From Oehlia diaphana (taxonomy: Eukaryota > Glomeromycota > Glomeromycetes > Glomerales > Glomeraceae), in the NCBI GenBank assembly GCA_003833135.1, contig QZLH01001231.1, positions 7,253 through 38,180 on the forward strand: a stretch of 30,928 nt of DNA, given 5' to 3'. The number at the start of each line of letters is the position of its first letter. Position 1 is the first letter of the stretch. The position numbers were made by a program, and so were the translations under genes. Shown piece by piece: positions 2,627 to 30,928 of the stretch. The notes beneath the pieces are model-generated. The model was not told the origin of the DNA. It saw nothing but the letters and a program-made list of their open reading frames with translations, and made no database searches.

Positions 2627-2660
2627 AGTAATATATATACAACTTTTTAAACATATATAC

Positions 2661-13049: not shown

Positions 13050-14270
13050 TTTTCATGCATCTGGAAACCAGGTTGTCTAATAAAAAAAAGAATGAAATTA
13101 AATTAGTTTACTAAAAGAAATACATTCAAAAAAATACTTTGGATTCTTCTTACCAAAATTCTACACTTCCAAAGACCTGGTCATCCGATCATCTAGAAAA
13201 AAAAAATAAAAATCAAAATGTTAGTAAGATATTTCATTAAAAGAAATAAATCAAAGAAAACTCCAATACTCGCCAAAATCTGTGTCCAATAAACTGGTTG
13301 TCTAAAAAAAAAGAAGAAATCCAACATGTTCAGACCTGAAGAGTACTTGTCAATATAATATTGATTTTACCAACAAAAAATCCTATGATCTTGATTTTCA
13401 TCAAGAATTTTTTTTTTAATCACGAATCTATTGTCTTATTAGCTTTAACCAAACTTTTTTTTAAACCTTTGTAGATATATCCGCTATATTTTCTACAATT
13501 TTCGTGCTTTTCATTATAACAAAATAATTTTATTTAAATAATGCATACTATTCAAATCTGAAGAGCAAGCCGTCTAAAAAAAAAGATAATAAAATGTTAA
13601 AGACAGTTTGTTAAATAAATAAATTAAAAAATCTCTTCTGATTTCTTACTGGAATCTAAGATCCATCTAAAAAAAGGAAAATAATGAAACATTAGTAAAC
13701 ATTTTGCTAAAATAAACAAAAAATAAATAAAATAAATTGAAGAAATTAACTTACAAATTCACGTCAAAAAAGTTTTGAAAAAGCTGATTAAAAAAAAGAA
13801 TAAGACGAAATATTAATAAACGTTTCATTAAAATAAATAAAAAAATAAAAGACAAAAATTACTTACCAAAAAGTCATGTCCAAAGAGCCAAAGAGCTGCC
13901 TAAAAAAAATAAAAAAAAATGAAATTATTAGGTTAACATTTTGTTATAATAAAGATGTTTAAAAAATAAAAAAACTAAAATATATACCGTAATTTACGTG
14001 TACAAAGACTTGAAGAAAAAGAAGCTATTTAAAAAGAGAAAGATAGATGAAACGTTAGTAAATGTTTCATTAAAGAATTATAAAAACAGCCCCCTCTTAC
14101 TAAATTCAAGTACTCAAATTCAAGCCATCAAAACTCTAGAAACCAGAAAGATCTGCCTAAAAAAGAAAAAAAAGTGAACTGTTAATAACAATTCGTCAAA
14201 GTAGTTAAATTAAAGAAAATAAAAAAAAATATACCAAAAACTTATGTATCAAAAGAAACTAAAAGACCAT
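13050..14270 (-). other. Tandem micro-exon-like array (main block)
   Basis: On the minus strand at least ten short blocks, each preceded by a poly-T tract ending in AG and nearly all followed by a GT donor, lie in a row. Blocks: 14270-14235, 14156-14101, 14024-13988, 13899-13867, 13783-13755, 13666-13650, 13574-13549, 13301-13274, 13192-13154, and one from 13076. Most gaps between them are 75-88 nt (78, 76, 88, 83, 88, 75, 81, 77). The 247-nt gap could hold another block ending at a donor at 13370. Several blocks share a core: TTTGGACATGACTTTTTG, TATTGGACACAGATTTTG, TTTTGATACATAAGTTTTTG, TTTGGAAGTGTAGAATTTTG. This looks like repeated duplication of an exon-plus-intron unit. In the best common frame some blocks contain stops, so the array may be decayed or non-coding. 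The block 13301-13274 has GC instead of GT as donor. Transcription is not shown. Confidence 0.5.
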
Positions 14271-14737
14271 CTAAAAAAAGAGAAAAATGAAACTGAATTT
14301 TCACACGTCTAAATCATATGCGCCAATTTCTGGAATTTGGCTTTTCATCAAGAAAACCAACTTTATCGTGTAAGTACAAATCACCAGGTGCATAAAAATA
14401 ATAGATCAATGTCAGCTGATGTGAATAAAATTGATCGTCATATGATTTTTTATTTCTTTTAATATAACATCAATAAAATTTAAAAAATCTGAATAAAATT
14501 AATGTGATAAAATTTTAAATACTCCACGTACATATATGCTAGACAGATAAATTTATATTCATTTGAAAGAGGAAATAAAGGCCTATCTAATGAATCTAAA
14601 ATCACATGAATTGAATTACTGGTTGTCGAGTAAATGCGCTCAGTATAATTATTTTAATTTTTAACTTTAATCGTTAATATCTCCACATCTAGTGATTTAA
14701 TCTGAATGATCTTTAATTACTAAGATAGAGTACATTC
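14271..14737. other. Region 5' of the micro-exon array
   Basis: On the minus strand an open stretch (14469-14314, 52 codons, no ATG) contains APGDLYLHDKVGFLDEKPNS, which looks more protein-like than its surroundings. It lies directly upstream of the first micro-exon-like block and might be a remnant upstream exon, but no convincing donor was found in the right phase. Confidence 0.25.
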
Positions 14738-15532
14738 TAAAGTTCCGAACAGGTCAGCCAAATTCAGGTAACCTGACCTGACCTGACCTGAAATTCAGGT
14801 CAGGTATGAGATTTTTGAAAAAATTCAGGTCAGGTATGAAGATTGACCTGATCTGATTGACCTGTTGACCTGAAACCATTGATTCTACTATATAATAAAA
14901 GTGAGTTGCAGTATTGCGATTCACTTTTTTATATTGATTTTATATAATAAAGTGAGTTGTGATATTGCGATTCAATATTTTTATATAAAAAAGTAAATTG
15001 CGATATCGCGATTCACTTTTTTATATTAATTCTATATAAAAAAAGTGAATTGCAGTATTGGGATTCACTTTTTTATATAAAAATATTGAATCGCAATATT
15101 TCAAGAAAAAATGTTGCGAAAACGTTTTTTTCATAATATTATATTAAAAAAATGTTTCGTAACGTTTTTTTGATATTTCAATAATAATGTTGCGAAAACA
15201 ATAGTTTCATAATGTTATATTAAAAAAAACATTTTGCAATATTTTTTTTTAATATTTTAATAAAAAAACGTTGCAAAAACGTTTTTTTTTATAATATTAT
15301 ATTAAAAAAAAATATTGCAAAAACATTTTTTTTTATAATATTATATTAAAAAAAAAGTTTTATACCATTTTTTTTTAATACTTTAATAAAAATAGTCCTG
15401 AAATTTTTTAGGTTTCAGGTCAGATCAGGTCAAACAGACAACCTGATATAACCTGACCTGACCTGACCTGAAAAAAATTTCAGGTCAGGTTTATCAATTA
15501 ACCTGACCTGACCTGACCCATTCAGAACTCTA
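14738..15532. mobile_element. Non-autonomous hAT-like element with CAGGTC arrays
   Basis: The ends read TAAAGTTCCGAACAGGTCAG and, in complement, TAGAGTTCTGAATGGGTCAG. They are flanked by a perfect 8-bp duplication GTACATTC (14730-14737 and 15533-15540). Just inside each end are inverted arrays of ACCTG/CAGGT (14754-14875 and 15405-15525). The interior is a series of imperfect palindromes of the type AGTGAATTGCAGTATTG...CAATATTGCGATTCACT, then AAAACGTTTTTTT-rich repeats. No coding capacity. The 8-bp duplication and TAGAG-type ends suggest mobilisation by a hAT transposase, though not that of the 8499 element, whose ends differ. Confidence 0.8.
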
Positions 15533-15540
15533 GTACATTC

Positions 15541-15957
15541 CCACCTTTTGAATGAATATAAAATTATTTGATTAGCACATATGGATGCTGAGATATTAAT
15601 GAACATGTAAATTGCATAAAATCTGATATAAATAAATTTTTAAAGTTACATTTCTTACCAAAAAATTATTTTCACAAGAGATCTTGAATAATTGTTGCCT
15701 TATTTAATGATAATTATTCATTATTTAAGGTTTTAATTGAATAAAACTATTAAATAAATATCAAAAAATAGAAGACAATTAGTATAAAATTAGTTCAATA
15801 AAAAATAAAAAAAAAACTTTCAAAAATCCTATATCATAGTTTATATTTTAATTTAATATATATTTTACAGAAAAAAAGAGAGGAACTAAAGTTAAAAACA
15901 TAAAAAATAATTTTTCTTATAAATAAAAAATATTTATTTATTTTTTCTTTTACTTAC
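15541..15957. other. AT-rich stretch with possible further micro-exon
   Basis: No ORF. On the minus strand a GTAAGTAA donor sits exactly at the edge of the assembly gap (from 15957). A TTTAG acceptor ends at 15886, giving a 72-nt intron. A 17-nt block (15885-15869) followed by GTAAAATA then comes. This fits the rhythm of the array at 13050-14270. Confidence 0.3.
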
Positions 15958-16734
15958 NNNNNNNNNNNNNNNNNNNNNNNNNNNNNNNNNNNNNNNNNNN
16001 NNNNNNNNNNNNNNNNNNNNNNNNNNNNNNNNNNNNNNNNNNNNNNNNNNNNNNNNNNNNNNNNNNNNNNNNNNNNNNNNNNNNNNNNNNNNNNNNNNNN
16101 NNNNNNNNNNNNNNNNNNNNNNNNNNNNNNNNNNNNNNNNNNNNNNNNNNNNNNNNNNNNNNNNNNNNNNNNNNNNNNNNNNNNNNNNNNNNNNNNNNNN
16201 NNNNNNNNNNNNNNNNNNNNNNNNNNNNNNNNNNNNNNNNNNNNNNNNNNNNNNNNNNNNNNNNNNNNNNNNNNNNNNNNNNNNNNNNNNNNNNNNNNNN
16301 NNNNNNNNNNNNNNNNNNNNNNNNNNNNNNNNNNNNNNNNNNNNNNNNNNNNNNNNNNNNNNNNNNNNNNNNNNNNNNNNNNNNNNNNNNNNNNNNNNNN
16401 NNNNNNNNNNNNNNNNNNNNNNNNNNNNNNNNNNNNNNNNNNNNNNNNNNNNNNNNNNNNNNNNNNNNNNNNNNNNNNNNNNNNNNNNNNNNNNNNNNNN
16501 NNNNNNNNNNNNNNNNNNNNNNNNNNNNNNNNNNNNNNNNNNNNNNNNNNNNNNNNNNNNNNNNNNNNNNNNNNNNNNNNNNNNNNNNNNNNNNNNNNNN
16601 NNNNNNNNNNNNNNNNNNNNNNNNNNNNNNNNNNNNNNNNNNNNNNNNNNNNNNNNNNNNNNNNNNNNNNNNNNNNNNNNNNNNNNNNNNNNNNNNNNNN
16701 NNNNNNNNNNNNNNNNNNNNNNNNNNNNNNNNNN
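15958..16734. other. Assembly gap of 777 N
   Basis: Unknown bases. The open frame that spans it is an artefact of N translation. Tandem repeats on its right edge and micro-exon-like blocks on both sides suggest the gap hides more repetitive sequence. Confidence 0.98.
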
Positions 16735-16767
16735 GTGATTGAAAAGTGATTGAAAAGTGATTGAAAA
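16735..16767. repeat. 11-bp tandem repeat at gap edge
   Basis: GTGATTGAAAA occurs three times in a row directly after the gap. A longer run of the same unit inside the gap would explain why the assembly broke here. Confidence 0.8.
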
Positions 16768-16976
16768 AAGAAGCAGTAATTATCATTGTTTTTGAATATA
16801 ATTTAAAAATTTTTTTTTTATTTTCTGATAAATTCAGATCATCTGAACATGTAACACATATTTAATTTAAGTTTGTGGAACACAATTCTTATTAAATGAA
16901 TAAATTTTTATAAAAATCTTAATTTTGGTTAATTTCACAGATCGGCAGATATGTATAAGAAAAAAGAATAAAACTG

Positions 16977-17089
16977 TCTAAAAAAAATTAAGAAAATGAG
17001 CCATTAGAAACTAGCTCGCTAAAATAAATATAATTGAAAAAAAAATAGTTTACCAGAAATGTTGTGTCCAGGGAGACTGAAATAATCGT
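16977..17089 (-). other. Two further micro-exon-like blocks
   Basis: A 36-nt block at 17089-17054 is preceded by TTTTCTAG and followed by GTAAAC. Its 3' part, CCTGGACACAACATTTCTG, matches the core of the blocks at 13-14 kb. A 76-nt intron (17053-16978) ends in TTTTTTTTAG, and the next block starts ACAGTTTTATTC at 16977; its donor is not clear. Same strand, same spacing and same sequence core as the main array, about 2.8 kb upstream of it. Confidence 0.4.
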
Positions 17090-17143
17090 CTAGAAAAGAA
17101 TTTTTGGATTTTTTTGTAGGTGATTTTAACTTTTTTTTTAAAT

Positions 17144-17340
17144 AGAAGAGGGAAAGGATGAAAAAAAGGAAAGAACGAACTCAAAAAAGAAAAAGAATAA
17201 AGGAAATGAAAATGGAAAGGATAAAAGAAAAGAACAAAAAAATGAGAAGGAAAATGGGAAAAGGAAATGTAATGTAAATGGATAGATAAGCTTATAAGAA
17301 ATTTGGTAAAAGAAAAATGAAAAAGGTGAAACTTCGTTGA
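17144..17340. repeat. Purine-rich tract
   Basis: About 200 bases of almost only A and G on the plus strand (GGAAAGGATGAAAAAAAGGA-like). The minus-strand 102-codon frame across it (Phe/Ser/His/Leu-rich) is a by-product of this composition and is not annotated as a gene. Confidence 0.7.
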
Positions 17341-17404
17341 GTAAAAAAAAATTATCAATTTGATAATTTATATCACGTGATACTCATAAGTTATAACACT
17401 AATT

Positions 17405-18105
17405 TAACAAAGTAACCAGATCAACTGGCCAACCTAACCTGAAACTTTTTTTCAGGTCGAATCAGGTCAGTACTAAACTGCACTAACCTGATCTGACCTG
17501 TTTGACCTGAATAGGTCAGGTCAGTTGGTTAACCTGATTTTTTCAGGATGGATAATAAAAGTGAAAAACGCTGATTGGCTTTTTTTCATAAAAAATAATG
17601 AAAAAATGCCACAAACTGGCATTTTTCATAAATAAAAAGTGAAAAAAATGCATTTTTAATAAATAAAGTTAAAAAATGCTGGAATGGCATTTTTTTTTCA
17701 AAAAAATAATGAAAATGCCATAAGTCAGCATTTTTCATAAATAAAAGTGAAAAAATGCCAGAATGGCATTTTTTTTATAAATAAATATGAAAAAAATGCC
17801 ATAAGTCAGCATTTTTCATAAATAAAAGTGAAAAAATGCCAGAATGGCATTTTTTTATAAATAAATATGAAAAAATGCCATAAACTGGCATTTTTTGTAA
17901 ATAAAAGTGAAAAAACGCTGGAATAACTGGCATTTTTCATAAATAAAAAGTGAAAAACTACGTTTTTTTATTTTCAGATTAACAGGTTAACCAGATCAGG
18001 TTGAAGCTTTAACCTGACCTGGTACTAGGTCATGGATTTGATGATTATTTCAAGTCAACCTAATCAGGTCACCTGAAATCGCTTGATCTGTTCTGGCTGT
18101 TCAGA
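17405..18105. mobile_element. Second CAGGTC-array element with palindromic minisatellite
   Basis: Same design as 14738-15532: subterminal inverted arrays of CAGGT/ACCTG (17430-17545 and 17975-18090) around an interior of repeated palindromes. Here the interior is different: from 17560 to 17960 units of about 60 bp such as AAAAATGCCAGAATGGCATTTT recur about six times. The right end reads CTGTTCAGAGCACTA; no matching left terminal repeat or duplication was found, so the left end may be lost. Confidence 0.6.
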
Positions 18106-18487
18106 GCACTATATTATTATACTAAAGGTACTTATGAAAAGCCTCTAAGGCTTAATATAAAAAATAAATGCTTATATTTTATACCTTTTTAATGATAAAT
18201 TCAAATGCTTAATTGGTATTTTTTTTCATAGCAATTAATGAGTATTAATCTAAAATATTTTTTAAGTATTTTGTTAAAGCAGCAATTATAAAGTATTTAA
18301 TGATAAATATTTAATTTGTAATCTATTATAATGATAACTAAATACTAATTTTAAATACAAATAGGTATTCATAAAACACTAAGTATTTAGTAAATACAAA
18401 ATTTAAGCATTTATTAAATAATTTGTGTTTGATGAATATATGTCTAACATTTGATAAACTTCAAAATGTTAGTAATCTGAAAAAAAA
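18106..18487. other. AT-rich dispersed-repeat remnants
   Basis: Variants of AAGTATTTAGTAAATAC and TTTGATGAATAT occur in both orientations, related to those at 12230-12790. No gene. Confidence 0.4.
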
Positions 18488-19090
18488 GTTCATCTGAGAT
18501 GAAAAGTTTACAAAAAAAATAAATATTAGAAATTTTGATTTAAAAAATGACATTTTTACAGTTATTTTCACAAGACATTCATTTTTTTGTTGGACTAAAA
18601 TAATGTAATTAAAGTTATTGAAACTAGAAATTCCAAAAAAAAAGAAGTCACCTGAAATGGACTTAAGGTTGCTTGTTTAAACCTTTTCAAAATCCTACGA
18701 TTAGTTTTGTTAAAATTTTACTATAGATTTATTATAGTTTCGGCAGAGTTTTGGCAGTTTTGGCATTTATAATAAGTTTTGGCAGTTTCGCCTTTCTCCA
18801 GAGTTTTGCCAGTTTTTTGATATAACTTTAATATAGTTTCAGCAGAATTTCGCTTTTTGGCAAAACGCCATCTTGCCTAAACCCCTAGGTTTCGGCAAGC
18901 AACCTTAAATGGATTATTCACAAAAAAGAAATAAATATTAGAAATTTTGATTTAAAAAATGGCATTTTTACAGTTATTTTCATAAGACATTTATTTTTTT
19001 TGTTGAATAAAAATAAAATCAAAATCACCTTTATGTAATTAAAGTTCTTGAAATTAGCAATTCTGAAAAAGAAGAAGTTCATCTGAAATG
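18488..19090. repeat. Tandem duplication (about 170-bp unit) split by a MITE
   Basis: Unit 1 (18488-18661) and unit 2 (18907-19090) share AAATATTAGAAATTTTGATT, ACAGTTATTTTCA, and the GAAGT(T)CA(C/T)CTGAAATG end. The MITE at 18662-18906 sits between them with AAATGGA on both sides, so it inserted after the duplication, at or near the junction. Confidence 0.65.
18662..18906. mobile_element. 245-bp MITE family, copy 2
   Basis: Ends AAGGTTGCTTGTTTAAACC and GGTTTCGGCAAGCAACCTT. It is flanked by the 7-base direct repeat AAATGGA (18655-18661 and 18907-18913). End-to-end match to 2385-2626. The exact first and last base are uncertain by two or three positions because TTAA flanks the repeat. Confidence 0.8.
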
Positions 19091-19710
19091 CATAATTTAT
19101 TATAATATAAAAATCAAAAATTTAATATAAAATAAGAAATTGACAATTTTTAGGAGAAATCATATAAAAAATTTATAGAATCAATAGAAGTATAAAAAAG
19201 CCAGCAGGTAAATAATATTAAGACTAAGCAAAACAAAAGTGAATACAAAAACATTATAGAATTCAATAATTTTTAATTATCTTTATTTTGATCAATAACA
19301 TTTTACTATTATATTTATCAGGCAAAATTCTTTTAACATTTCTTGTAATCTTATATTCATCATTTTTATCATTTTTTTATTTGATTTTAGGGTTCAGTAT
19401 AAGGTCTTAATTCTTAATTATTTATAGTAAATAGGTGATTTTTTTTTTTAGATATACAATTAATTGTTATTATTACATCAGGATAATGATTACAGGTACT
19501 TGATTAATGTCATATATATTCATATCTTCTATACTGACAATAATATTAAAATTTACATTTATTTATAAATTCAGTCAATCAAAATAAGTCAATTAAAATC
19601 AAAAAAAATAAAAAAATTAATATCTTATTTATTAATCTTTTATATATTGAGTTTAACCAAAAAATCATTAATACTACTTAGTGACATAATTCATAGTTAA
19701 TAAAAAATAA
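19091..19710. other. AT-rich intergenic region before the telomeric array
   Basis: No open frames, repeats of note or RNA genes seen. It is the last ordinary AT-rich DNA before the composition shifts at the first TTAGGG tract. Confidence 0.5.
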
Positions 19711-19723
19711 ATTAGGGTTAGGG

Positions 19724-19764
<41 letters not shown>

Positions 19765-19814
19765 GGTTAGGGTTAGGGTTAGGGTTAGGGTTAGGGTTAG
19801 GGTTAGGGTTAGGG
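19711..19814 (+). repeat. Interstitial telomeric tract (TTAGGG)n
   Basis: About 17 near-perfect TTAGGG units, with one GTTTAGGG variant near 19740. The G-rich strand reads left to right, so the corresponding chromosome end would lie to the right. Confidence 0.97.
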
Positions 19815-20820
19815 TTTATATTAGTATTAGGTGATTTGTAAAATTTACTGAATGTAAAAATGCAAAAAATAAACAGAATTTGAACAAGCGACGTCGTTCG
19901 GCCAACTTCTGTGAACTACTGGACGTCCAAGTTCTCGTTCTTCCTTTTATAATTGCGACAAATCTATGTAGCTTATAATTTTGAATCTTTTCCAAATAAA
20001 ACCCAAAGTCCTTACATGTGGACTTTATTGCCAAGCACAAAAAATCGTATGATTTCTAAATGTGGCACGCCTTTCATTGTATGAATGAAAATACATGCAA
20101 AAGTTAATTTAACTTTCCGAAATATTATGAAACGCAAAGCCGAGCCTAGACCTATCAAAGGAACTAAACGCCGAACATTACGCCAAGGAAAATTCTAATG
20201 GAAACTATTAACTTAACTTGGAAGTATTAAAAATACTTTGAAACTTTAACCCCTTAAACTTTTATAGTAGAATGAAACTTGGCGTCGCTTGTGGCATGAC
20301 ACGCGGTTTCACTTAATTAATGTAATTAATACTAAAAAGTGAAAATGGATGGATCGACCGGAAGCGCGGCAAATCCAATTTATAACGGCTAAATATTTAT
20401 CCGAAACCGGTGTAATATTTATCCGAAATCACGTGAGCTGCGGCGAAGCCGCAGTTTAGCTGCGTCGAAACTGCGCCATGCAGATCGTTTGCGTCAACAT
20501 CAACTGACTGTCCTACCCCGGGTGGGAAAAGGTCATTTGACAATTGTCACGTGATTTGAGTAACCTAACGTAAAACAGCCAGCCACGTGCAAAAAGTCAC
20601 GTGACTGGCCTTTTACGTAACACAACCCCATACTGCGCCACAATTTTTTCGGGCCGGTTAGGGTTAGCATTTACTGCGCCCTCGGCCAAATTTTTATCCC
20701 TATGCTTGATCACGTGATCGCGCGGATAAACTTTTGATTGGCTAAACTTAGGGTTAGAGCACGTGACAGAGCGGAAAAACGTCTGATTGGTCCACCCACT
20801 TAGGGTTAAAACCTACGCGC
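19815..20820 (-). repeat. 1-kb telomere-linked unit, copy A
   Basis: About 1005 bp starting GTTTATATTAGTATTAGG and ending CCTACGCGCTTAGGG. It recurs at 24181 (B), 25194 (C) and 29401 (D), always head to tail and joined by TTAGGG sequence. Short TTAGGGTT stubs also occur inside (near 20662, 20748, 20803). A and B are identical over roughly their first 300 bases. By position next to the reverse transcriptase it behaves like the terminal repeat (pLTR) of a Penelope-like element. A minus-strand open frame (20040-19816) runs through the first part but has no ATG. Confidence 0.85.
20430..20765. promoter_or_regulatory. Cluster of six CACGTG palindromes
   Basis: CACGTG starts at 20430, 20548, 20584, 20598, 20711 and 20760, inside copy A. 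CACGTG is the known binding site of bHLH factors such as Cbf1 and Pho4 in fungi, and Cbf1 sites occur in yeast subtelomeric X elements. The equivalent sites in copies B-D are partly changed to CATGTG or CACATG. Relative to the retroelement sense strand the cluster lies in the far upstream half of the unit, where a promoter might be expected. Binding is an inference. Confidence 0.4.
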
Positions 20821-20905
20821 TTAGGGTTAGTGTTATTAGGGCTAGGGTTAGAGTTAGGGTTAAGTTAGGGTTAGGGTTAGGGTTAGGGTTAGGTACGGGT
20901 TAGGA
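20821..20905 (+). repeat. Variant telomeric tract between unit A and the retroelement
   Basis: TTAGGG repeats with variants (TTAGTGTTATTAGGG, GGGCTAGGG, TTAGAGTTAGGG, GGTACGGGTTAGG). The opening GTTAGTGTTATTAGGG is shared with the corresponding junction after copy D, so the two junctions derive from one event or from an element that carries this tract. Confidence 0.9.
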
Positions 20906-20910
20906 CCCCC

Positions 20911-20953
20911 TCCGGAGCTTATGTCCATCATCAGGGGTGACATAAGCTCCGGA
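20911..20953 (-). other. Perfect 15-bp hairpin in the retroelement 3' end
   Basis: TCCGGAGCTTATGTC pairs with GACATAAGCTCCGGA around a 13-nt loop. On the sense (minus) strand the loop reads ACCCCTGATGATG. It lies about 130 nt beyond the stop codon and just before the telomeric repeats. It is conserved without change in body 2 (30521-30563). It could be an RNA recognition or processing element for the reverse transcriptase. Confidence 0.7.
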
Positions 20954-21084
20954 CCCTACATTAGTTATTTGGAAAGTCTATATGCATGGAGGGAAACTGA
21001 CATCAGACTATTAAACGATCAATCAGCCTAGGACACTTGGGAAAAGTTCCGTTAAAGCGGCTACCGATGAAAGTTTTGCTGAAG

Positions 21085-24000
21085 TCAGACCGAATTGGGT
21101 TGATACCCACTAAGGTTTTTCTTAGACTGATTCATAACACTTATAATAGTTTTACCTTGAGAAACGACAGGGACCAACCTTCGTTCAGAAATCTCTAAGG
21201 TGTTAACCAAAGAATCCACAACGTGGATTGCAGATGTTAAAAGCGGACGCGACCCAGAATTGCGAACCGCAATGTAACTATTATTACCCTTTTCTACACT
21301 AGCATTTTTTCTAGTTTTATGTGGTTTCGCACCGGCCAGGAGTTCGTTTCTATCGCCATAATAATTTAACGAACAGAATCTTTCGATTAAGTCCTGAGAG
21401 TATTTTCGTCTGAGTAAGAATTTCTTGAAGTCCAAGAGACTTCGTTCATACGATACAGACGTCGACGAATTACGAATTAGTCGAATATTTTCCCCTTGTA
21501 TCCAGTTATAAACGTAATGGAAAGGATAAAAGGTAGAGGGGTCGGTATAGATATGGAGGTTGGTGGGCTTATCGTAAACACTTAAGCGTAGCACCTTATT
21601 TCGCTCCAATCTGTTGTCAATACCAATCTCAATTTTAAGGTCTAAATATTCAACGTATTGCCCTGGGTTGTGAGCAGTTCCGGTCCGCTCAAATGTAATA
21701 GAGTCATCGGAGAATTGGGTGAGCATACCACAAAAACGTGACATACGCTCCTCCATCCGGAACTTAGCAAGATCATTAGGAATAGGAGAATTAAAACTTG
21801 AATGAAAGAAAAGTATATCATCCAAGTACCTATAATAATGAATGTTCTTGGTACGCATAGATGGGATAACTGTATCTTCCAGTTGAGCCATGTATAGGTT
21901 AGCAAGAACAGGTGACAATGGTGAGCCCATAGGTAAACCACGTTTTTGTTTATAAACGCGGCCTCCGAAACCTACGTACGAGGTGTGAAAGACAAATTCT
22001 ATAAGCACCATAGTGGAACGCCAGTATGGTTCGTTTTTATCAGTCCACCAACCATAGTCCTTAGCAAGCACTTCGATTCTGCGGAGACACTCCTCCTGGC
22101 CGATAGAGTTGTACATATCGGACACATCGAACGAAGCTAAGACAAAGTCATAAGACATAAGACCATCTAATTCCCGAACAAGTTCGGTACTGTTAGTTAA
22201 CACATGATCAAAAATTTTTACATAGTCGCCCAAACGTCTAACGACTTCCAAAGCAGCTTTGACATTGATCCACTCCACCACCGGAGTAATAACTCGGAGT
22301 TTATAAGGTGATTTGTGGAGTTTAATAAGACCATAAGCTTGAGGTAAATTTTCCGCATGTGGGTCAATAAGTGCGCTAGTAAGTTCATACGAAGTGGTAA
22401 AAGCGCAGTATTTACGTAAGGAGGACTGGAGCCATGCCGAAGCGTGCAACTCCTTCACGTCGAAACGATCGGAAGCTACCAACTCAAACACGTCAGTCCT
22501 ATTAAAATGTTTTAGCATGTTATCAATATACCAAGATTTATCAATAATCGTTAAACCTAAGTTTTTATCAGCGAGAATGCACATAAGCTCATTATCGTTC
22601 AAAAAATTGAAAACATTTTGCACAAGTTTATTTTGTTTAACAGCTTGTTTAAAATTTGATTTAGAAGCAACAACTTTATTAAAATAGTTTGGATCATTTA
22701 TCATTACAGATTGAACCGCATCCATAATATTATTTAAACTATTATTATTATTATTAAAGCTATCACTATTTCTTATTATTTCTTTTGCTTGGTGTGCGAT
22801 CCCTGACCAGTTTTTCCGTCTGGTCTGTAAAGAGGGAGAAGAAATAATTTGGAAATTAGCTCCTAAATTCAGAGTGCTAAAAACATACGAAGGAATGGAG
22901 ATATTTCGTTGGGTTGCAACGTTCACAAATACCTTTTGTTTTTGTTTTTGTTTTTGGGATTCCCGCCCGCTTTTTTCTTCTGCGGTTGGGAGGACTTCGG
23001 TCCTTGTTTTTTGGGACCTTTGGGCTGACCGGCGGGCTTCTTTCCGCTTTTTTTGCCCTTTTCCTTCGATTTCCCCTTTGTTTTGTTGCCTTTGGGAGGT
23101 TGAGATCCCTTCGTCTTTTTTGTAGCCTTGGAAGCTTGTTCCGAGGCGGGACGTTTCTTGGGGTTGAGTGTGATTAACTTCCGAGCCGGCTGATGCTGCG
23201 ACTGGAGGTTGAGAGGCTTGGGAGGAACCTATGTTACATTTGATAATAGCCAAATCAATAACAGAGATAAAAGATTCATCCAACGGAACTTTATTTTTAC
23301 TCACCTTAGGCGCGGGTGATTGTTTAAGTTTCGTAAGTTCGTTCTCCAACCAATCCAAATTATATTTGATGTTGGAGGCCCATTTTTCCCGGAGGCTATC
23401 CTTTTCTTCCTCACTAAGGTCCGGGCTTGCTATCGCATGTTCTAAGGCGGTATTTAACTCTGTGCGGAGTTGGGGGCCCACATTAGATAGCTGGTCCTTG
23501 ATTGCAGTGATCTGTTCGTCAAGGTCCTTTGCTAAAATATCCATGGTGGCTGAGGCTACTTTCGCATCCAAAGCTTTCCGGTTCTCCTCGAATATTTTAA
23601 TTTCGGCATTATCTGCTGAAACGAGGCGATACTGGTAGTATTTTTTAGCGGCGGCGAGGTTATTATTATTTTTTACCTCTGCGACTTTAACAAGTCGAGC
23701 TCTGAGACGGGCGAGCTTTTGCAATAAATTCCGAGCACAAGATTTCATCGCTTTAGTATTTGGAAGGAGCTCCAATCCTTTTTGTTTAGGAGTAGCGACG
23801 GGACGGGCGGGGCGGGAGCCTATTTCCATTGTAGTTTCTTCCGCAAAGTCAAGGTGCATAGGACCTTGATCATGTAAGCGTTGTAAAGAACTAGAACGGG
23901 AGCGACCACGATTTTGTGTAAGCCTTTTTTCTAAGGCTGTAACAGTTTCCATCGAGGTAGCATAAAAGCCTTGCATTTCGTTATATGCAGTTTGGCTGGC

Positions 24001-24156
24001 GGCAAGTTCATTGCGTAGACGAGTGACCTCGTTTGCGGCAAAGACTTGTACATCTGGAGTAGCTTGTCCAGAGGCTAGCGCCTGGAACGCCTGGTGGAGA
24101 GTATTGCTAGTTTCAACGGGGGGAGGGGGGTTCGATCCTTCGCCTTGTTGAGACAT
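21085..24156 (-). CDS. Penelope-like reverse transcriptase, no GIY-YIG endonuclease
   Basis: 1023 aa, starting at ATG 24156-24154, uninterrupted. Residues 1-300 are mostly helical and coiled-coil-like (LRNELAASQTAYNEM; ENRKALDAKV). Residues 355-410 are Lys/Arg/Gln-rich (KGQKKRKEARRSAQR), a possible nuclear or RNA-binding region. The RT core follows: LADKNLGLTIIDKSWY (528-543), KLHKSPYKLRVITPV (612-626), ASFDVSDMYNSI with catalytic Asp677, RGLPMGSPLSPVLANLY (739-755), YRYLDDILFF with Asp779/Asp780, and EYLDLKIEI. The thumb-like KPTNLHIYTDPSTFYPFH (863-880) is typical of Penelope-like RTs, relatives of telomerase. No GIY-YIG motif is visible at either end; the last 90 residues are unremarkable. 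It would copy the element RNA, probably from a telomeric 3' end. An intact frame in a region of decayed repeats suggests recent activity. Confidence 0.92.
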   Translation of the reverse strand: MSQQGEGSNPPPPVETSNTLHQAFQALASGQATPDVQVFAANEVTRLRNELAASQTAYNEMQGFYATSMETVTALEKRLTQNRGRSRSSSLQRLHDQGPMHLDFAEETTMEIGSRPARPVATPKQKGLELLPNTKAMKSCARNLLQKLARLRARLVKVAEVKNNNNLAAAKKYYQYRLVSADNAEIKIFEENRKALDAKVASATMDILAKDLDEQITAIKDQLSNVGPQLRTELNTALEHAIASPDLSEEEKDSLREKWASNIKYNLDWLENELTKLKQSPAPKVSKNKVPLDESFISVIDLAIIKCNIGSSQASQPPVAASAGSEVNHTQPQETSRLGTSFQGYKKDEGISTSQRQQNKGEIEGKGQKKRKEARRSAQRSQKTRTEVLPTAEEKSGRESQKQKQKQKVFVNVATQRNISIPSYVFSTLNLGANFQIISSPSLQTRRKNWSGIAHQAKEIIRNSDSFNNNNNSLNNIMDAVQSVMINDPNYFNKVVASKSNFKQAVKQNKLVQNVFNFLNDNELMCILADKNLGLTIIDKSWYIDNMLKHFNRTDVFELVASDRFDVKELHASAWLQSSLRKYCAFTTSYELTSALIDPHAENLPQAYGLIKLHKSPYKLRVITPVVEWINVKAALEVVRRLGDYVKIFDHVLTNSTELVRELDGLMSYDFVLASFDVSDMYNSIGQEECLRRIEVLAKDYGWWTDKNEPYWRSTMVLIEFVFHTSYVGFGGRVYKQKRGLPMGSPLSPVLANLYMAQLEDTVIPSMRTKNIHYYRYLDDILFFHSSFNSPIPNDLAKFRMEERMSRFCGMLTQFSDDSITFERTGTAHNPGQYVEYLDLKIEIGIDNRLERNKVLRLSVYDKPTNLHIYTDPSTFYPFHYVYNWIQGENIRLIRNSSTSVSYERSLLDFKKFLLRRKYSQDLIERFCSLNYYGDRNELLAGAKPHKTRKNASVEKGNNSYIAVRNSGSRPLLTSAIHVVDSLVNTLEISERRLVPVVSQGKTIISVMNQSKKNLSGYQPNSV

Positions 24157-24180
24157 TGTGATTATAAGATTTTGGGTTAG

Positions 24181-25193
24181 GGTTTATATTAGTATTAGGT
24201 GATTTGTAAAATTTACTGAATGTAAAAATGCAAAAAATAAACAGAATTTGAACAAGCGACGTCGTTCGGCCAACTTCTGTGAACTACTGGACGTCCAAGT
24301 TCTCGTTCTTCCTTTTATAATTGCGACAAATCTATGTAGCTTATAATTTTGAATCTTTTCCAAATAAAACCCAAAGTCCTTACATGTGGACTTTATTGCC
24401 AAGCACAAAAAATCGTATGATTTCTAAATGTGGCACGCCTTTCATTGTATGAATGAAAATACATGCAAAAGTTAATTTAACTTTCCGAAATTTTATGAAA
24501 TGCAAAGCCGAGCCTAGACCTATCAAAGGAACTAAACGCCGAACATTACGTTAAGGAAAATTCCAATGGAAACTATTAACTTAACTTGGAAGTATTAAAA
24601 ATACTTTGAAACTTTAACCCCTTAAACTTTTATAGTAGAATGAAACTTGGCGTCGCTTGTGGCATGACACGCGGTTTCACTTAATTAATGTAATTAATAC
24701 TAAAAAGTGAAAATGGATGGATCGACTGGAAGCGCGGCAAATCCAATTTATAATGACTAAATATTTATTTGAAATCGGTATAATATTTATCTGAAATCAT
24801 GTGAGTTGTGGCGAAGTTGCAGTTTAGTTGCGTCAAAACTGCACCATGCAGATCATTTATGTCAACATCAAATGACTGTCTCACCCTGGGTGGGGAAGAT
24901 CATTTGATAATTGTCATGTGATTTAAGTAATCTAATGTAAGATAGACAGCCATGTGTAAAAAGTCACGTGACTGGCTATTTACATAACACAATCCCATAT
25001 TGCGCCACAATTTTTTTTGGGCCGGTTAGGGTTAGGATTTACTGTGCTCTTGGCCAAATTTTTATCCTTATGCTTGATCATGTGATCACGTGGATAAACT
25101 TTTAATTGGCTAAACTTAGGGTTAGACACGTGACAGGGCGGAAAAACGTCTGATTGGTCTACTTACTTAGGGTTAAAATTTACGCGTTTAGGG
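24181..25193 (-). repeat. 1-kb telomere-linked unit, copy B (upstream of the RT)
   Basis: In the sense direction this unit leads straight into the RT start through CCCTAACCCAAAATC and a 16-nt spacer, so it should hold the promoter and 5' leader. Its first half (to about 24720) is nearly identical to copy A. Its second half carries dozens of C-to-T and G-to-A differences from A (for example CACGTGAGCTGCGG becomes CATGTGAGTTGTGG). It joins copy C through a single TTTAGGG. Confidence 0.85.
24184..24408 (-). other. ATG-less open frame ahead of the RT, same frame
   Basis: An open frame of about 75 codons (CKDFGFYLEKIQNYK, then GRTRTWTSSSSQKLAE) ends at TAA 24186-24184, only 27 nt before the RT ATG and in the same reading frame. 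It starts at TTG, not ATG. It is identical in copy A, has two amino-acid changes in D and is broken in C. It could be a leader exon or read-through segment, or simply conserved because the whole unit is young. I do not call it a gene. Confidence 0.25.
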
Positions 25194-26430
25194 TTTATAT
25201 TAGTTTTAGGTGATTTGTAAAATTTACTGATGTAAAAATGCAAAAAATAAACAGAATTTGAACAAGCGACGTTGTTCGGCCAACTTCTGTGAACTACTAG
25301 ACGTCCAAGTTCTCGTTCTTTCTTTTATATTGCGATAAATCTATGTAGCTTATAATTTTAAATCTTTTCCAAATTAAATCCAAAGTCCTTATATGTGGGC
25401 TTTATTGCCAAGCACAAAAAATCGTATAATTTCTAAATGTGGCACGCCTTTCATTGTATGAATGAAAATACATGCAAAAGTTAATTTAACTTTCTGAAAT
25501 ATTATGAAATGCAAAGCTGAGCCTAGAGGTAGGCTCCGGTGAAAAACGTCAATACGGTCATCCGGTCAAATCACGTGATTTTTGCCGATCATTTCCTTTT
25601 TTGGGTCAAATGTTACACAAATTTCCAAAAGCGGAATTTCTGTTTTTAGAAAAAATATTTTTTTAACGGGTGGGTATTGTCCAAAAAGGAAATGATCTGC
25701 ATATCCGTGATCGACATCACGTGATCGGATAAAATGACGGATTGAACGGATGACCGGAGCCTACCTCTAGCTGAGCCTAGACCTATCAAAGGAACTAAAC
25801 GCCGAACATTACGCCAAGGAAAATTTTAATAGAAACTATTAACTTAACTTGGAAGTATTAAAAATACTTTGAAATTTTTAACTCCTTAAACTTTTATAGT
25901 AGAATGAAATTTGGTGTTACTTGTGACATGATACACGGTTTCATTTAATTAATGTAATTAATACTAAAAAGTGAAAAAGAATAGATCGACTGGAAGCGTG
26001 GTAAATCCAATTTGTAATAGCTAAATATTTATCCGAAATCAGGGTAATATTTATTTAAAATTACGTGAGCGGTGGTGAAGCCGCAGTTTAGTTGTGTCGA
26101 AACTGCACCATGCAGATCATTTGCGTTAATATCAACTGACTGTTTCACCCTGGGTGGAGAGAGATTATTTGACAATTGTCACATGATTTGAGTAATCTAA
26201 TGTAAAACAGTTAGCTACGTGCAAAAAGTCATGTGATTGGCCTTTTACATAACACAACTTTATACTGTGCTATAATTTTTTTGGGACAGTTAGGGCTAGT
26301 ATTTACTGTGTTTTCGGCCAAATTTTTATCACTATGTTTGATCACGTGACTGTGTGGATAAATTCTTGATTGGCTAAACTTAGGGTTAGAGCACGTGACA
26401 GAGTGAAAAATATCTGATTGGTCCACCTAC
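25194..26430 (-). repeat. 1-kb telomere-linked unit, copy C, decayed and interrupted
   Basis: Full-length relative of copy A, about 990 bp after removing the 246-bp insertion at 25524-25769 plus its duplicated 8 bases. It carries small deletions (for example ACTGATGT for ACTGAATGT, and TTATATTGCG for TTATAATTGCG) that break the open frame seen in A, B and D, and many transition changes. It ends in a telomeric tract. Confidence 0.85.
25524..25769. mobile_element. Complete 246-bp hAT-type MITE inserted in copy C
   Basis: Terminal inverted repeats TAGAGGTAGGCTCCGGT and ACCGGAGCCTACCTCTA are perfect. The perfect 8-bp duplication GCTGAGCC (25516-25523 and 25770-25777) matches the uninterrupted GCCGAGCC site in copies A, B and D apart from one transition. 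No ORF. The same family ends at position 112 and a related one at 26700. Confidence 0.93.
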
Positions 26431-26529
26431 TTAGGGTTAGGGTTAGGGTTAGGGTTAGGGTTAGGGTTAGGGTTAGGGTTAGGGTTAGGGTTAGGGTTAG
26501 GGTTAGGGTTAGGGTTAGGGTTAGGGTTA
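26431..26529 (+). repeat. Telomeric tract (TTAGGG)n ending at a single N
   Basis: About 16 perfect TTAGGG units, then one N at 26530 and an abrupt change to unrelated sequence. The single N in a long simple repeat looks like an uncertain assembly join, so array length and the link to the right-hand sequence are not secure. Confidence 0.95.
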
Positions 26530-26530
26530 N

Positions 26531-26700
26531 TATCTGATCAATCCGGTCAATCCGGTCATCCGTGTAACATCCGATCAATCCGATGTTATCCAACGGATCC
26601 ATCCGGATTATCCGCAATCCGTTCATTCTTAATCTGGATGATCCGTTTTTTGATCGGATCGGATGATGGATTGAACGGATTTCACCGGAGCACACCTCTA
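26531..26700. repeat. Right part of a MITE related to 25524
   Basis: Rich in variants of ATCCGGTCAATCC and ATCGGATCGGATGATGGA, ending TTCACCGGAGCACACCTCTA, close to the right terminal repeat of the 25524 element. The left end is missing at the N. Its last bases supply the stop codon of the neighbouring ORF fragment, so it cut into the older element to its right. Confidence 0.65.
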
Positions 26701-26946
26701 ATCTGGGCCGATAACAGTATTATAAGACTGACTACCTAGATCTTTACATGTAGTTATTAAATTAGTCTCCTTTTTCCGTCCAGTAAAATTGAATAAATCT
26801 CCAGACTTCTCTATTCTGAGTTGATTCTCTGGTGTTAATCCTTTTAAGAATGCCCGTCTTCTTACCAACTTCCGTATATCAGATTGATCAACTTTTGCTA
26901 TATTGCTTATAGTTCGCATTATAGATATGTTAATATATTCTAGCAA
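26698..26946 (-). pseudogene. ORF fragment of the decayed recombinase element
   Basis: An 82-codon open frame (first ATG at 26919) reads VDQSDIRKLVRRRAFLKGLT and ENQLRIEKSGDLFNFTGRK, basic and probably helical. Its stop lies in the MITE end, so the natural C-terminus is lost. It may be the 3' continuation of the Ser-rich pseudogene upstream, with stops in between. Function unknown. Confidence 0.4.
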
Positions 26947-27101
26947 AGAAAAAATAAGGTTATCTCTGGCAGAAGTTGTTCTAGTAAATTAACTGTATGT
27001 ATTTTATATAGTTAGAATATCTTTCAATCAGAAAAAATCTTCTGAATGGATGATATGCATTCTTCTTCTAAAACTTCCCTTTGGCGCTTCCTGATCTGTT
27101 T

Positions 27102-27396
27102 CTAAATCCTTTGATGCTTAATCATCTTTACTATTTCATTAATATCAGAATTAGATGAACCAGATTTGGATGAGCTAGTCTCGGATGAGAAACTAAATTC
27201 AGATGAACTACCAGATGACGAACTAGATTCAGATGAACTAGTCTCAGATGATGAGCCAGACTCAGATGAGTTTGATTCAGACGAACTAGTCTTAGGTAAA
27301 GTAGACTTGGACAGAATATTGGTTAAGGCCGTCAGATGCTTTACCCTGAATGCCTTGTTTTTTTTGAACAACTCCAACCGGTTGGTTACTTTCCAT
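27102..27396 (-). pseudogene. Ser/Glu-rich protein fragment
   Basis: Starts at ATG 27396 with MESNQPVGVVQK. A frame change at an A-homopolymer then leads to FRVKHLTALTNILSKSTLPK and a Ser/Glu repeat region (SSSESNSSESGSSSETSSSE) followed by SDINEIVKMIKHQRI. After that stop the same frame continues with KQIRKRQREVLEEECIS, so the stop is probably a mutation. The Ser-rich part is low complexity. Likely an accessory gene of the recombinase element or a captured host fragment. Confidence 0.4.
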
Positions 27397-27509
27397 TTTG
27401 ATTATTTATTTATTAAACTTAATATCTTTGACCTAAAAAATATGCAAAGTGACTGACTCGGCCCACTTCAAATTACAATCTGCTTAACCTTTCTCGGTCG
27501 TGCCTTCCT

Positions 27510-27881
27510 TCATTGCTTATGAGGGATATCCTCGCTCTTTCTTAACACAGCGCCTCTTGACTCTTTTTTACCAATAAGCGAGGGAACTATTTCATGAATT
27601 AAGTTGACCACAGTTTTCCTATCCACACATTCATCCAGATCTTCTACTACATATTCGTCCAGATCTTTTAATTCATCTTCTAAGGATCCTACATTTCTTT
27701 CCAGTCTTTTTACCAACTTTTTATATTCGGAATAGTAGTTATCCATTTTTTCATCCAGTGCTCCCATCTTTTCAGAAAGTGCACTATCCATATCTGCAAT
27801 CCGCTTAGCAATTTTCTCATATCTGAATACTTTCTGCTCAATGGATGCACTATCGGATGAGTGGTTTTGGTCGGTTACCAT
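27510..27881 (-). CDS. Small coiled-coil protein, function unknown
   Basis: 123 aa with ATG at 27881-27879 and no breaks. A heptad-rich middle (KIAKRIADMDSALSEKMG, YYSEYKKLVKRLERN) is followed by an acidic segment (LEDELKDLDEYVVEDLDE) and a short basic tail (GKKESRGAVLRKSED). No membrane segment or catalytic motif. It lies about 130 bp downstream of the broken recombinase gene on the same strand and next to the Ser-rich fragment, so it may be an accessory ORF of the same mobile element. It is the only one of that group that still reads through. Confidence 0.5.
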   Translation of the reverse strand: MVTDQNHSSDSASIEQKVFRYEKIAKRIADMDSALSEKMGALDEKMDNYYSEYKKLVKRLERNVGSLEDELKDLDEYVVEDLDECVDRKTVVNLIHEIVPSLIGKKESRGAVLRKSEDIPHKQ

Positions 27882-28011
27882 TTTTACGATATTTTATATA
27901 TGCTATACAGTATCTTGTCTAGGTGAAAAAATAAAATTAATAAATGATACCAGGGTTACCGAAGGTAACGCTCTCCCGATTCTAATCATCTAACCCGTTT
28001 ACAGTATGTGA

Positions 28012-29162
28012 TTAGTTTTCGTCAAAGAACTTGAATACTTTTGCCTGATCATAAGGTATCCCACGGGGCCTGTAATTGACTATAGTATAGTTTTTTGCAG
28101 AGGAGACATGGTTGTCTGCACTATGGCGAAGTGCTTCACTAGCGATAGTCATAGCCTCTGATAAATTCTTTGAACTACAGTATATGATACAACTGCAAAT
28201 ACCACCCCTAATTTGCGCAAAGAACTAAGAAGTAGCGGTTTACCTATTTCAGGGAGAAATTCATCCTTTTTTAGAAATGTATTGAACTATGATACGCCTA
28301 GCTTTCCTGGGTCTCGTAACTATCTGGAAGAAATTGCTTCCTGAATCCATATAAGCAATTGCTTCGCCCGTTTCTCATTCTTCTCTAGTGATCTAAATAC
28401 TCGAGGAATGTCTTGTTGATCTTAATTTTTTCCATACTCAGTTACGTTTCTATTGAATATGTGCAAGTCTTTAATTTCGTCAGGGCGAATACAAAGTATT
28501 ATCATTACATCGGCTAGGGCTTATTTATCAGATATATTTGACACAACATATGAATCCAGTCTTTTCTTAACCGATTCTAATGAGAAGTGGTCTGGATAAT
28601 AGATCCTTCATTCTCACATAACAATCTATTCTCCTTTTGAATTTTATTAGCTGAACAAGTTATATCTAGAATAAATGTAGCTGAGATAATTTTTTTTGAG
28701 GCTCTGAGGGCTTTCAGTTCTTTTTGAAGTCTAGTGAGGCGTGATAGGCCAGCGCTGGCATTAGAGGCCGGCCGTTTCAGATAAGGCCTTGGCTATAACT
28801 TCTACTGCTTTTTCACTAATATTATCTCAGATAATACGCTCGGCCAAATCTCTAATAGTCTCTTTCAGTGAAATTTGACATACATTCACTGTCCCCTCTT
28901 CTAGTTCTACTTTCTGAGTGGTATCAGGAGTATTGGATACGGCTCCTTCTTTTTTCCGACCAGCTATCTGCTTAAAAATTAATGCAAATACCTGTTTTTC
29001 GCTAAAGTTGTATCCTTTCTTAAGACGACGTCGTGCCTGATTCCTCTTAGTTTTATCTGTCAAAAGGATGTCTAATGTCAGTGCGGGTTGACTGAGCTCT
29101 TCGATACTCATCTCATTATTGAGCTCGTTTTCTGTTACATATCTAGTAGTGATGTCAGCCAT
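28012..29162 (-). pseudogene. Tyrosine-recombinase-like (Crypton-type?) gene, decayed
   Basis: Starts at ATG 29162 (MADITTRYVTENELNNEMS), with a basic N-terminal part (KRNQARRRLKKGYNFSEKQV). After shifts and stops the catalytic half follows: SVKKRLDSYVVSNISDK, ALADVMIILCIRPDEIKDLH (the Arg of box I), DIPRVFRSLEKNEKRAKQLL, SSLRKLGVVFAVVSYT, and NLSEAMTIASEALRHSADNH with NHVSSAKNYTIVNY, whose Tyr is the candidate nucleophile. The LRHS-to-NY spacing fits box II of tyrosine recombinases. Four in-frame stops (after ISDK, YGKN, AISSR and LGVS) and at least two frameshifts inactivate it. Assignment is by motif reading only; Crypton-type is the best guess because no reverse transcriptase accompanies it. 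Confidence 0.55.
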
Positions 29163-29400
29163 GTTATTATTTGGTAATATGTAAGATATTTGGTTATACC
29201 TAGGTTGTTTAGTATATACTATGCGGAGAAAGTTCAATTTGAAAAATTCCCTCAGAGCTATACTTCTTCAAAAAGGGAAAATAACAGAAATGGCTCTTGA
29301 CTAGGAGTAAAAAAAAATGATATAGCTTATGCTCTGCCATTAAGGCGCTTTCCAGACTGGCATAATATATTTTTAAATATCTATAATAAAAATGAAGATA

Positions 29401-30418
29401 AGGTTTATATTAGTTTTAGGTGATTTGTAAAATTTACTGAATGTAAAAATGCAAAAAATAAACAGAATTTGAACAAGCGACGTCGTTCGGCCAACTTCTG
29501 TGAACTACTGGACGTCCAAGTTCTCGTTCTTCCTTTTATAATTGCGACAAATCTATATAACTTATAATTTTGAATCTTTTCCAAATAAAACCCAAAGTCC
29601 TTACATGTGGACTTTATTGCTAAGCACAAAAAATCGTATGATTTCTAAATGTGGCACGCCTTTCATTGTATAAATGAAAATACATGCAAAAGTTAATTTA
29701 ACTTTCTGAAATATTATGAAACGCAAGGCCGAGCCTAGACCTATCAAAGGAACTAAACGCCGAATATTACGCTAAAGAAAATTCTAATGGAAACTATTAA
29801 CTTAACTTGGAAGTATTAAAAATACTTTGAAACTTTTAATCCCTTAAATTTTTATAGTAGAATGAAACTTGGCGTCGCTTGTGGCATGACACGCGGTTTC
29901 ATTTAATTAATGCAATTAATACTAAAAAGTGAAAATAGATTGATCGACCAGAAGCGCGGCAAATCCAATTTGTAATGGCTAAATATTTATTCGAAACTGG
30001 TGTAATATTTATCCGAAATTATGTGAACTGCGGCGAAGTCGCAGTTTAGCTGCGTCAAAACTGCGCCATGCAGATTGTTTGCGTCAACATCAACTGACTG
30101 TCCCACCCCGGGTGGGGAGGGTTCATTTGACAATTGTTACGTGATTTGAGTAATCTAACGTAAAACAGCCAGCTACGTGCAAAAAGTCACATGACTGGCC
30201 TTTTATGTAACACAACCCCATACTGCGCCACAATTTTTTTGGGCCGGTTAGGGTTAGCATTTACTGCGCTCTCGGCCAAATTTTTATCCCTATGCTTGAT
30301 CACGTGATCGCGTGGATAAACTTTTGATTGGCTAAACTTAGGGTTAGAGCACGTGACAGAGCGGAAAAACGTCTGATTGGTCCACCCACTTAGGGTTAAA
30401 ACCTACGCGCTTAGGGTT
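29401..30418 (-). repeat. 1-kb telomere-linked unit, copy D
   Basis: Matches copy A over its whole length, including the internal TTAGGG stubs and the end CCTACGCGCTTAGGG, with a modest number of mostly transition changes. It starts abruptly after AT-rich sequence without a preceding telomeric tract. The ATG-less minus-strand frame (29629-29405) is preserved with His-to-Tyr and Ile-to-Lys changes. Confidence 0.88.
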
Positions 30419-30510
30419 AGTGTTATTAGGGTTAGGGTTAGGGTTAGGGTTAGGGTTAGGGTTAGGGTTAGGGTTAGGGTTAGGGTTAGGGTTAGGGTTA
30501 GGGTTAGGGN
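30419..30510 (+). repeat. Telomeric tract between unit D and body 2
   Basis: Opens with the same GTTAGTGTTATTAGGG as the tract after unit A, then perfect TTAGGG units with one N near the end. The open frames across it on both strands (Pro-Asn and Gly-Leu dipeptide repeats) are translation artefacts of the repeat. Confidence 0.95.
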
Positions 30511-30928
30511 TAGGACCCCCTCCGGAGCTTATGTCCATCATCAGGGGTGACATAAGCTCCGGACCCTACATTAGTTATTTGGAAAGTCTATTTGCATGGA
30601 GGAAAACTGACATCAGACTATTAAACGATCAATCAGCCTAGGACACTTGGGAAAAGTTCCGTTAAAGCGGCTACCGATGAAAGTTTTGCTGAAGTCAGAC
30701 CGATTTGGGTTGATACCCACTAAGGTTTTTCTTAGACTGATTCATAACACTTATAATAGTTTTACCTTGAGAAACGACAGGGACCAACCTTCGTTCAGAA
30801 ATCTCTAAGGTGTTAACCAAAGAATCCACCACGTGGATTGCAGATGTTAAAAGCGGACGTGACCCAGAATTGCGAACCGCAATGTAACTATTATTACCCT
30901 TTTCTACACTAGCATTTTTTCTAGTTTT
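30511..30928 (-). mobile_element. Penelope-like retroelement, body 2 (truncated by window end)
   Basis: Aligns without gaps to 20901-21318, differing at 5 of 418 positions. It includes the same hairpin (30521-30563) and the same junction to telomeric repeats. Confidence 0.93.
30695..30928 (-). CDS. Penelope-like reverse transcriptase, C-terminal part (partial)
   Basis: The last 77 codons of a second copy of the RT, ending YQPKSV at the TGA 30697-30695. It is open throughout. Of the three differences from copy 1 within the coding part, two are silent and one changes Asn to Lys near the C-terminus. The catalytic part lies beyond the window. Confidence 0.85.
   Translation of the reverse strand, partial: KTRKNASVEKGNNSYIAVRNSGSRPLLTSAIHVVDSLVNTLEISERRLVPVVSQGKTIISVMNQSKKNLSGYQPKSV

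Follow-up and report, generated by a model that had tools for sequence, protein, structure and literature searches.

How does a reverse transcriptase (RT) gene come to lie between telomeric repeats near the end of a fungal scaffold, and what are the 1-kb noncoding units that accompany it? This question is raised by a stretch of 30,928 nucleotides, here called the window, from Oehlia diaphana (Glomeromycota; GenBank assembly GCA_003833135.1, contig QZLH01001231.1, positions 7,253 to 38,180 of the forward strand). In our numbering the scaffold is C1166. Its length is 38180 bases and the window covers C1166:7253-38180, so the right edge of the window is the scaffold end. The assembly searched comprises 108.8 Mb in 1672 contigs. 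We regard the locus as probably containing a telomere-attached, endonuclease-deficient Penelope-like retroelement (PLE), because an intact RT open reading frame (ORF) without a recognised endonuclease, a fixed orientation and CCCTAA-type sense 3' ends occur together with terminal TTAGGG repeats on a second scaffold, C741. On these same observations the original prediction of a telomere-attached element lacking an endonuclease holds up.

The telomeric tracts, the four 1-kb units (A to D) and the RT frame, all of them predicted from the sequence, are real and are arranged as follows.

19712 to 19816, plus strand: (TTAGGG)17, made of 5 and 12 perfect copies plus a single additional T, at the junction from AT-rich host DNA to unit A
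19817 to 20835, minus strand: unit A, 1 kb, noncoding, the least decayed unit, which retains 56 of 57 CpG sites; its left end reads GGGTTTATATTAG
20821 to 20904, minus strand: degenerate telomeric tract, free of N, between unit A and RT body 1
20911 to 20953, minus strand: hairpin (fold z -3.35) just upstream, in sense direction, of the CCCTAA tract; CUGAUGA present
21085 to 24156, minus strand: RT ORF of 1023 codons with RVT_1 at residues 672-793 and without a recognised endonuclease domain
24171 to 24182, minus strand: seam of about 1.5 telomeric repeats that links the RT 5' end to unit B and has the same sequence on C741
24183 to 25187, minus strand: unit B, truncated on the right at an internal TTAGGG
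25194 to 26430, minus strand: unit C, the most decayed, cut at an earlier internal TTAGGG; insert resembling a miniature inverted-repeat transposable element (MITE) at about 25528-25770
26431 to 26529, plus strand: (TTAGGG)16 on the right of unit C; the single N that comes next, at 26530, is interpreted as a scaffold join
26531 to 29398, no strand assigned: dispersed repeats outside the telomeric element, left edge in mid-repeat
29399 to 30410, minus strand: unit D, left side adjoining non-telomeric repeat sequence
30411 to 30509, plus strand: TTAGGG repeats to the right of unit D, perfect for 14 copies from 30426 onward; another single N, at 30510, follows and is likewise taken for a scaffold join
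30511 to 30928, minus strand: RT body 2, 3' part only, running to the scaffold end

The host DNA left of the array is AT-rich (GC 0.255 over 1-19700) and includes a run of N at 15958-16734. From 19712 to 26529 the sequence can be read without any N through (TTAGGG)17, unit A, the degenerate tract, the hairpin, RT body 1, the seam, unit B, unit C and (TTAGGG)16. A single N is the mark of an assembler's join. The dispersed repeat of 26531-29398 has at least 71 matches in the genome including itself (from the best 40 of 66 candidates scored); two other fetched copies of the first repeat after 26530 extend past its starting point here, and a related copy on C75 extends past the point where unit D starts. 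Thus, the single array that had been predicted stands for 19712-26529, but the further succession of TTAGGG, unit D, TTAGGG and RT body 2 is scaffolded and not read through, because of the two Ns, the start in mid-repeat and the dispersed repeat as left neighbour of unit D. Since single Ns occur at 26530 and 30510 and position 26531 lies inside a dispersed repeat, the long array is read as at least two subtelomeres that the scaffolder has put together. On C741 the order is host DNA, (TTAGGG)8, 62 bases of a unit, an N, 1.4 kb of other sequence, an RT 5' end, a further unit (E), (TTAGGG)21 and the scaffold end.

The five units A to E share pairwise identities of 89.1-96.8%. A 27-letter pattern for their left end (up to 3 mismatches) was found six times in the 108.8 Mb, always on the plus strand, four times on C1166 and twice on C741 (control 0); all six left ends have the telomere orientation and lie near the ends of the two scaffolds. 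The proposed fixed 1-kb partner is therefore constant at its left end (6 of 6 copies) but variable at its right. Unit A continues on the right into the tract and RT body, and unit D does likewise, but across an N; unit E passes into (TTAGGG)21 at the end of C741, units B and C stop at internal TTAGGG motifs, and in the second C741 copy an N interrupts the sequence after 62 bases. The TTAGGG run next to unit C has 16 copies and that next to unit D 14, each ending at an N; the run of 21 next to unit E ends with the scaffold. Copies lying mainly at internal sites would have spoken against attachment to telomeres, but this is not the case: seven of the 12 unit matches listed fall in the end arrays of C1166 and C741, and the other five are fragments of 34-126 bases on C813, C327, C177, C1 and C8.

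The first bases of the unit, read by eye, form a hexamer-phased degenerate telomere repeat (TTAGGG TTTATA TTAGTA TTAGG). Within 19817-20820 there are three TTAGGG and no CCCTAA, with 0.13 expected and three reached in none of 5000 simulations. CACGTG occurs six times in unit A (0.17 expected), five times in E, three times in B and twice each in D and in C outside its insert; elsewhere it was counted four times in 19,711 bases of host DNA, not at all in RT body 1, once in RT body 2 and six times in 54,270 bases from 18 other loci. The observed/expected ratio of CpG falls from 1.39 in the unit to 1.03 in the RT body and 0.77 in the host part. The MITE-like repeat is present in the window as two mutually inverted copies, 98% identical, at 2-112 and 25524-25634, the latter inside unit C with GGTAGGCTCCGG at its edge.

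The RT frame on the minus strand runs over 1023 codons without a stop. RVT_1 (residues 672-793, E=2.5e-12) is the only Pfam family listed, and the domain search of the 1023-residue protein returned no endonuclease. Matches in PDB and NCBIfam are mostly bacterial RTs (Drt2, retrons, group II introns) in the palm region, and a TERT structure follows at E=0.0035. The motifs ADKNLG, YGLIKLHK, FDVSDMYNSI, MGSPLSP, YRYLDD and DKPTN resemble, by eye, the motifs of PLEs. That part of the original prediction which called the element Penelope-like has this motif resemblance on its side, and membership in the class is best described as putative. Searched against its own genome, the RT protein matches six places: the complete frame, 77 residues at the scaffold end, 61 on C741 and one small piece each on C619, C189 and C933; a DNA search adds a 78-base match on C17. 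RT body 2 is incomplete and 99% identical to body 1 over 414 bases. Six peptide patterns, which reach close relatives only, detected no relatives in viral and prokaryotic contigs. A structure prediction of the RT part without alignment (mean predicted local distance difference test score, pLDDT, of 35) was not used. The five GIY-YIG matches in the genome were read as an SLX1-like gene, two zinc-knuckle proteins and two matches on a mitochondrial-like contig. None was recognised as a GIY-YIG PLE, and within about 1.5 kb on each side of these loci no match to this RT better than E=1 was present. According to a 2013 paper, fungal genomes hold only endonuclease-deficient PLEs (PMC3846280).

In sense direction the RT ORF is followed by CCCTAA-type repeats, as predicted. 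The hairpin just before them measures 43 bases, and one of 200 shuffles folded as well. Its identification as a hammerhead ribozyme was rejected: it contains CUGAUGA, but both the descriptor and Rfam were negative at the hairpin. In the whole window no hammerhead was among the Rfam matches at E<=1, and the one descriptor match (28435-28483) is about the chance number. A dispersed repeat was likewise discarded as an explanation, as among the matches listed none covers the hairpin outside the two RT bodies. At the other end of the RT body the 5' end and the seam to the unit are identical on C1166 and C741 (2 of 2 loci), and the ORF starts only about 15-25 bases from the unit.

A telomere-attached PLE would explain such an anatomy in the following way. 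Element RNA with a CCCUAA-type end would anneal to the TTAGGG 3' overhang exposed at a chromosome end, or more rarely use a broken end instead, and the RT would copy it straight onto the chromosome. Telomerase would then cap the new, often 5'-truncated end with TTAGGG, and repeated rounds would give head-to-tail arrays in which every sense strand points inward. The 1-kb unit may be the long 3' untranslated region (UTR) of the element. Unit A with RT body 1 would then represent the full element and the unit-only B, C and E 5'-truncated copies. Among three architectures this is the one we tentatively prefer, with a chance slightly short of even. Units C and E followed by TTAGGG arrays, and B and C cut at TTAGGG, look like truncated copies with a telomeric cap, which counts only if the left end of the unit is the 3' end.

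Several observations weigh against this reading in whole or in part. The innermost unit A is the freshest and the outer units B and C are the most decayed, the opposite of what strictly outward growth would give; the model therefore has to admit recombination between ends, source copies that differed or mixing during assembly. Units A and D differ by 4%, RT bodies 1 and 2 by about 1% over 414 bases, and this divergence together with the order of decay would be compatible either with the unit as a separate element or with recombination between ends. The tract that separates unit and RT body is variable, and the hairpin with CCCTAA resembles a second 3' end, which speaks against the unit as 3' UTR; the fold at the sense 3' end of the unit itself is not special (z -0.28). 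Identity of the seam in two loci could reflect one duplication. Furthermore, small diverged RT pieces lie at other places in the genome, the array was found on two scaffolds only and the CCCTAA-starting scaffold C544 has no unit match, and the PLE class is read from motifs compared by eye.

The best surviving alternative, which we consider possible yet clearly less likely, is that the unit is an independent subtelomeric repeat or a non-autonomous telomere-attaching element that merely alternates with a separate RT body having its own hairpin-CCCTAA 3' end. Six unit left ends against three RT pieces (body 1, body 2 and the 61-codon piece on C741) would fit this idea, as would telomeric sequence on the left of both unit and RT body and an identity of 96% between units A and D compared with 99% between the RT bodies. 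The identical junction of RT 5' end and seam in both loci is against it, and an N separates unit D from body 2, which means that the contrast in identity may be one between different loci. Somewhat less probable still is that the unit is a 5' leader or promoter, that the 3' end consists of hairpin and CCCTAA as in Terminons, and that unit-only copies were primed at the seam CCCTAACCC. The hairpin beside the telomere complement does match the Terminon arrangement, and the short distance between ORF start and unit and the same seam in two loci agree with a leader; however, 5' truncation should leave lone 3' pieces of the RT body that carry the hairpin end, none of which is among the matches listed, and unit copies starting at a TTAGGG tract would require internal priming. 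An array produced by scaffolding unrelated pieces is improbable: the single Ns (26530, 30510 and on C741) and the mid-repeat start at 26531 make the misassembly considered with the original prediction partly true, but unit A, tract, body 1, seam, units B and C and TTAGGG form an N-free series and C741 independently holds seam, unit and tract.

The window contains 46 matches to TTAGGGTTAGGG (0.01 expected), and (TTAGGG)4 has 63 forward and 14 reverse matches in the genome (control 0 and 0), located on C544 at the scaffold start, C741, C1166 and at single places on five other scaffolds. These internal places, on C163, C379, C424, C464 and C581, were dismissed as further arrays, having no unit match. 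C544 begins (1-450) with a terminal CCCTAA array that shades inward into CTATAA and CCATAA variants. The locus on C163 (1501-1674) is an internal degenerate telomere-like satellite whose units include GGGTTTATATTAGGG, which is near the unit's left end. Six matches to PF12009 exceeded the cut-off, two on C81, one on C1266 and three on C1365, while 14 control genomes gave none. The best one, on C81 (49.1 bits), has no stop; the four on C1266 and C1365 have internal stops. Open frames near the C81 matches carry putative TERT motifs, and telomerase-like exons are present. For this reason the arrays are best seen as passengers of telomerase-kept ends, with a role in end maintenance being possible.

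The units decay with a strand bias, in that C-to-T changes predominantly strike the telomeric G strand. Of the 208 C columns 99 show C>T in at least one of B-E when unit A is the reference, and of the 200 G columns 42 show G>A (Fisher p=1.5e-8); the p-values become 2e-7, 4.5e-7 and 1.3e-6 when the majority, D or E takes the place of A. The comparison excluded columns with a majority gap (e.g., the insert in C) as well as the 62-base copy. These p-values treat columns as independent though the copies share history, with 31 of the 99 C>T columns common to at least two units. The remaining changes are rare (6 T>C, 10 A>G and 16 transversion columns). Of 56 CpG sites, 36 show C>T and 19 G>A. The bias is strongest in the right part (columns 600-1023; 67/103 versus 18/100), weaker in the middle (300-600; 25/56 versus 16/54) and absent from the left 300 columns (7/49 versus 8/46). 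Per unit, C>T to G>A amounts to 41:11 in B, 61:20 in C, 21:9 in D and 15:10 in E, with CpG-only binomial p-values of 0.011, 0.041, 0.23 and 1. Differences from the majority number 11 in A, 52 in B, 87 in C, 32 in D and 29 in E. Measured on the G strand, the G-over-C skew amounts to 0.108 in C, 0.062 in B, 0.016 in D, 0.000 in E and -0.020 in A, the higher values of C and B resulting from this C-to-T decay.

Two imperfect control repeats lack the bias. The dispersed repeat of the window, with nine fetched places from 70 other matches listed, gave 127/246 versus 113/208 (p=0.57; 1234 columns with at least four copies and a majority), being more diverged than the units and near saturation. The 210-bp repeat, with five copies of 42 other matches listed, gave nine changes of each kind. 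Plain CpG methylation on double-stranded DNA is expected to cause symmetric decay. Both 3' overhangs and telomeric R-loops expose the G strand as a single strand, and either a single-stranded G strand in resected ends or a displaced one in R-loops of telomeric RNA would fit the bias. It is conceivable, though on balance rather unlikely, that the mutations of the units record life at a chromosome end, G-strand cytosines deaminating more than those of the opposite strand, and that the CpG-rich unit with its six CACGTG sites next to the TTAGGG tract also serves as promoter of telomeric RNA. This would be a testable mutation signature for DNA that once was a chromosome end. If general, the bias would orient and date past ends and could alone produce a G-poor centromere-directed strand as in Drosophila telomeric elements.

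Elements of this kind are already known from the telomeres of rotifers and other fungi; new is the G-strand C-to-T bias of the unit decay. Coprina of basidiomycetes, also named in the original prediction, is an endonuclease-deficient telomeric PLE. Family 4 of Mycosphaerella graminicola, a PLE lacking an endonuclease, is likewise a subtelomere-limited RT element with telomeric repeats at its 3' end, that end facing away from the telomere, with tandem truncated copies in a TTAGGG host with telomerase; its 34 full-length elements measure 3.4-3.5 kb and full-length copies occupy 26 of 41 ends (PMC4522978). Unlike in that family, the 1-kb noncoding unit here outnumbers the RT part and two scaffolds only carry the array. 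Athena and the Terminons of bdelloid rotifers share the endonuclease-deficient RT, telomere-capped 5' truncations and head-to-tail arrays (PMC6431247, PMC3846280). In Terminons a hammerhead fold precedes reverse-complement telomere repeats (PMC6431247); the arrangement is alike here, but the fold is not a hammerhead by descriptor or Rfam. HeT-A, TART and TAHRE of Drosophila form head-to-tail arrays with 3' ends inward, as here, and have a long 3' UTR beside the following element, a likeness only if the unit is a 3' UTR (PMC5537684). Their G-poor strand faces the centromere, the same direction as that arising here in decayed units. They are non-LTR elements of a host without telomerase repeats (PMC5537684), in contrast with the TTAGGG, the telomerase-like exons and the RT of PLE-like motifs seen here.

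For a near-complete assembly of Rhizophagus irregularis TTAGGG ends are reported, and the word Penelope is absent from the main text (PMC10234402). Among the titles and abstract openings listed, none reports PLEs at telomeres of a mycorrhizal fungus; a 2007 study of Glomus intraradices chromosome ends may already describe such sequences. With the present locus, telomere-attached PLEs would also be represented in a probable mycorrhizal fungus that has a telomerase-like gene, and attachment and capping would here most often involve a 1-kb noncoding unit.

Further features were noted in the window. An ORF at 7015-7551 has a Crinkler N-terminal domain (3.7e-11), and remains of a hAT transposase lie at 8688-9128; together with the base composition these two tentatively suggested a mycorrhizal host. 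The 210-bp repeat at 18700-18908 has at least 40 other full-length copies at 88-97% identity (from the best 40 of 397 candidates scored). The dispersed repeat at 27102-29267, with many relatives in the genome, contains small ORFs, one serine-rich and acidic and one coiled-coil-like.

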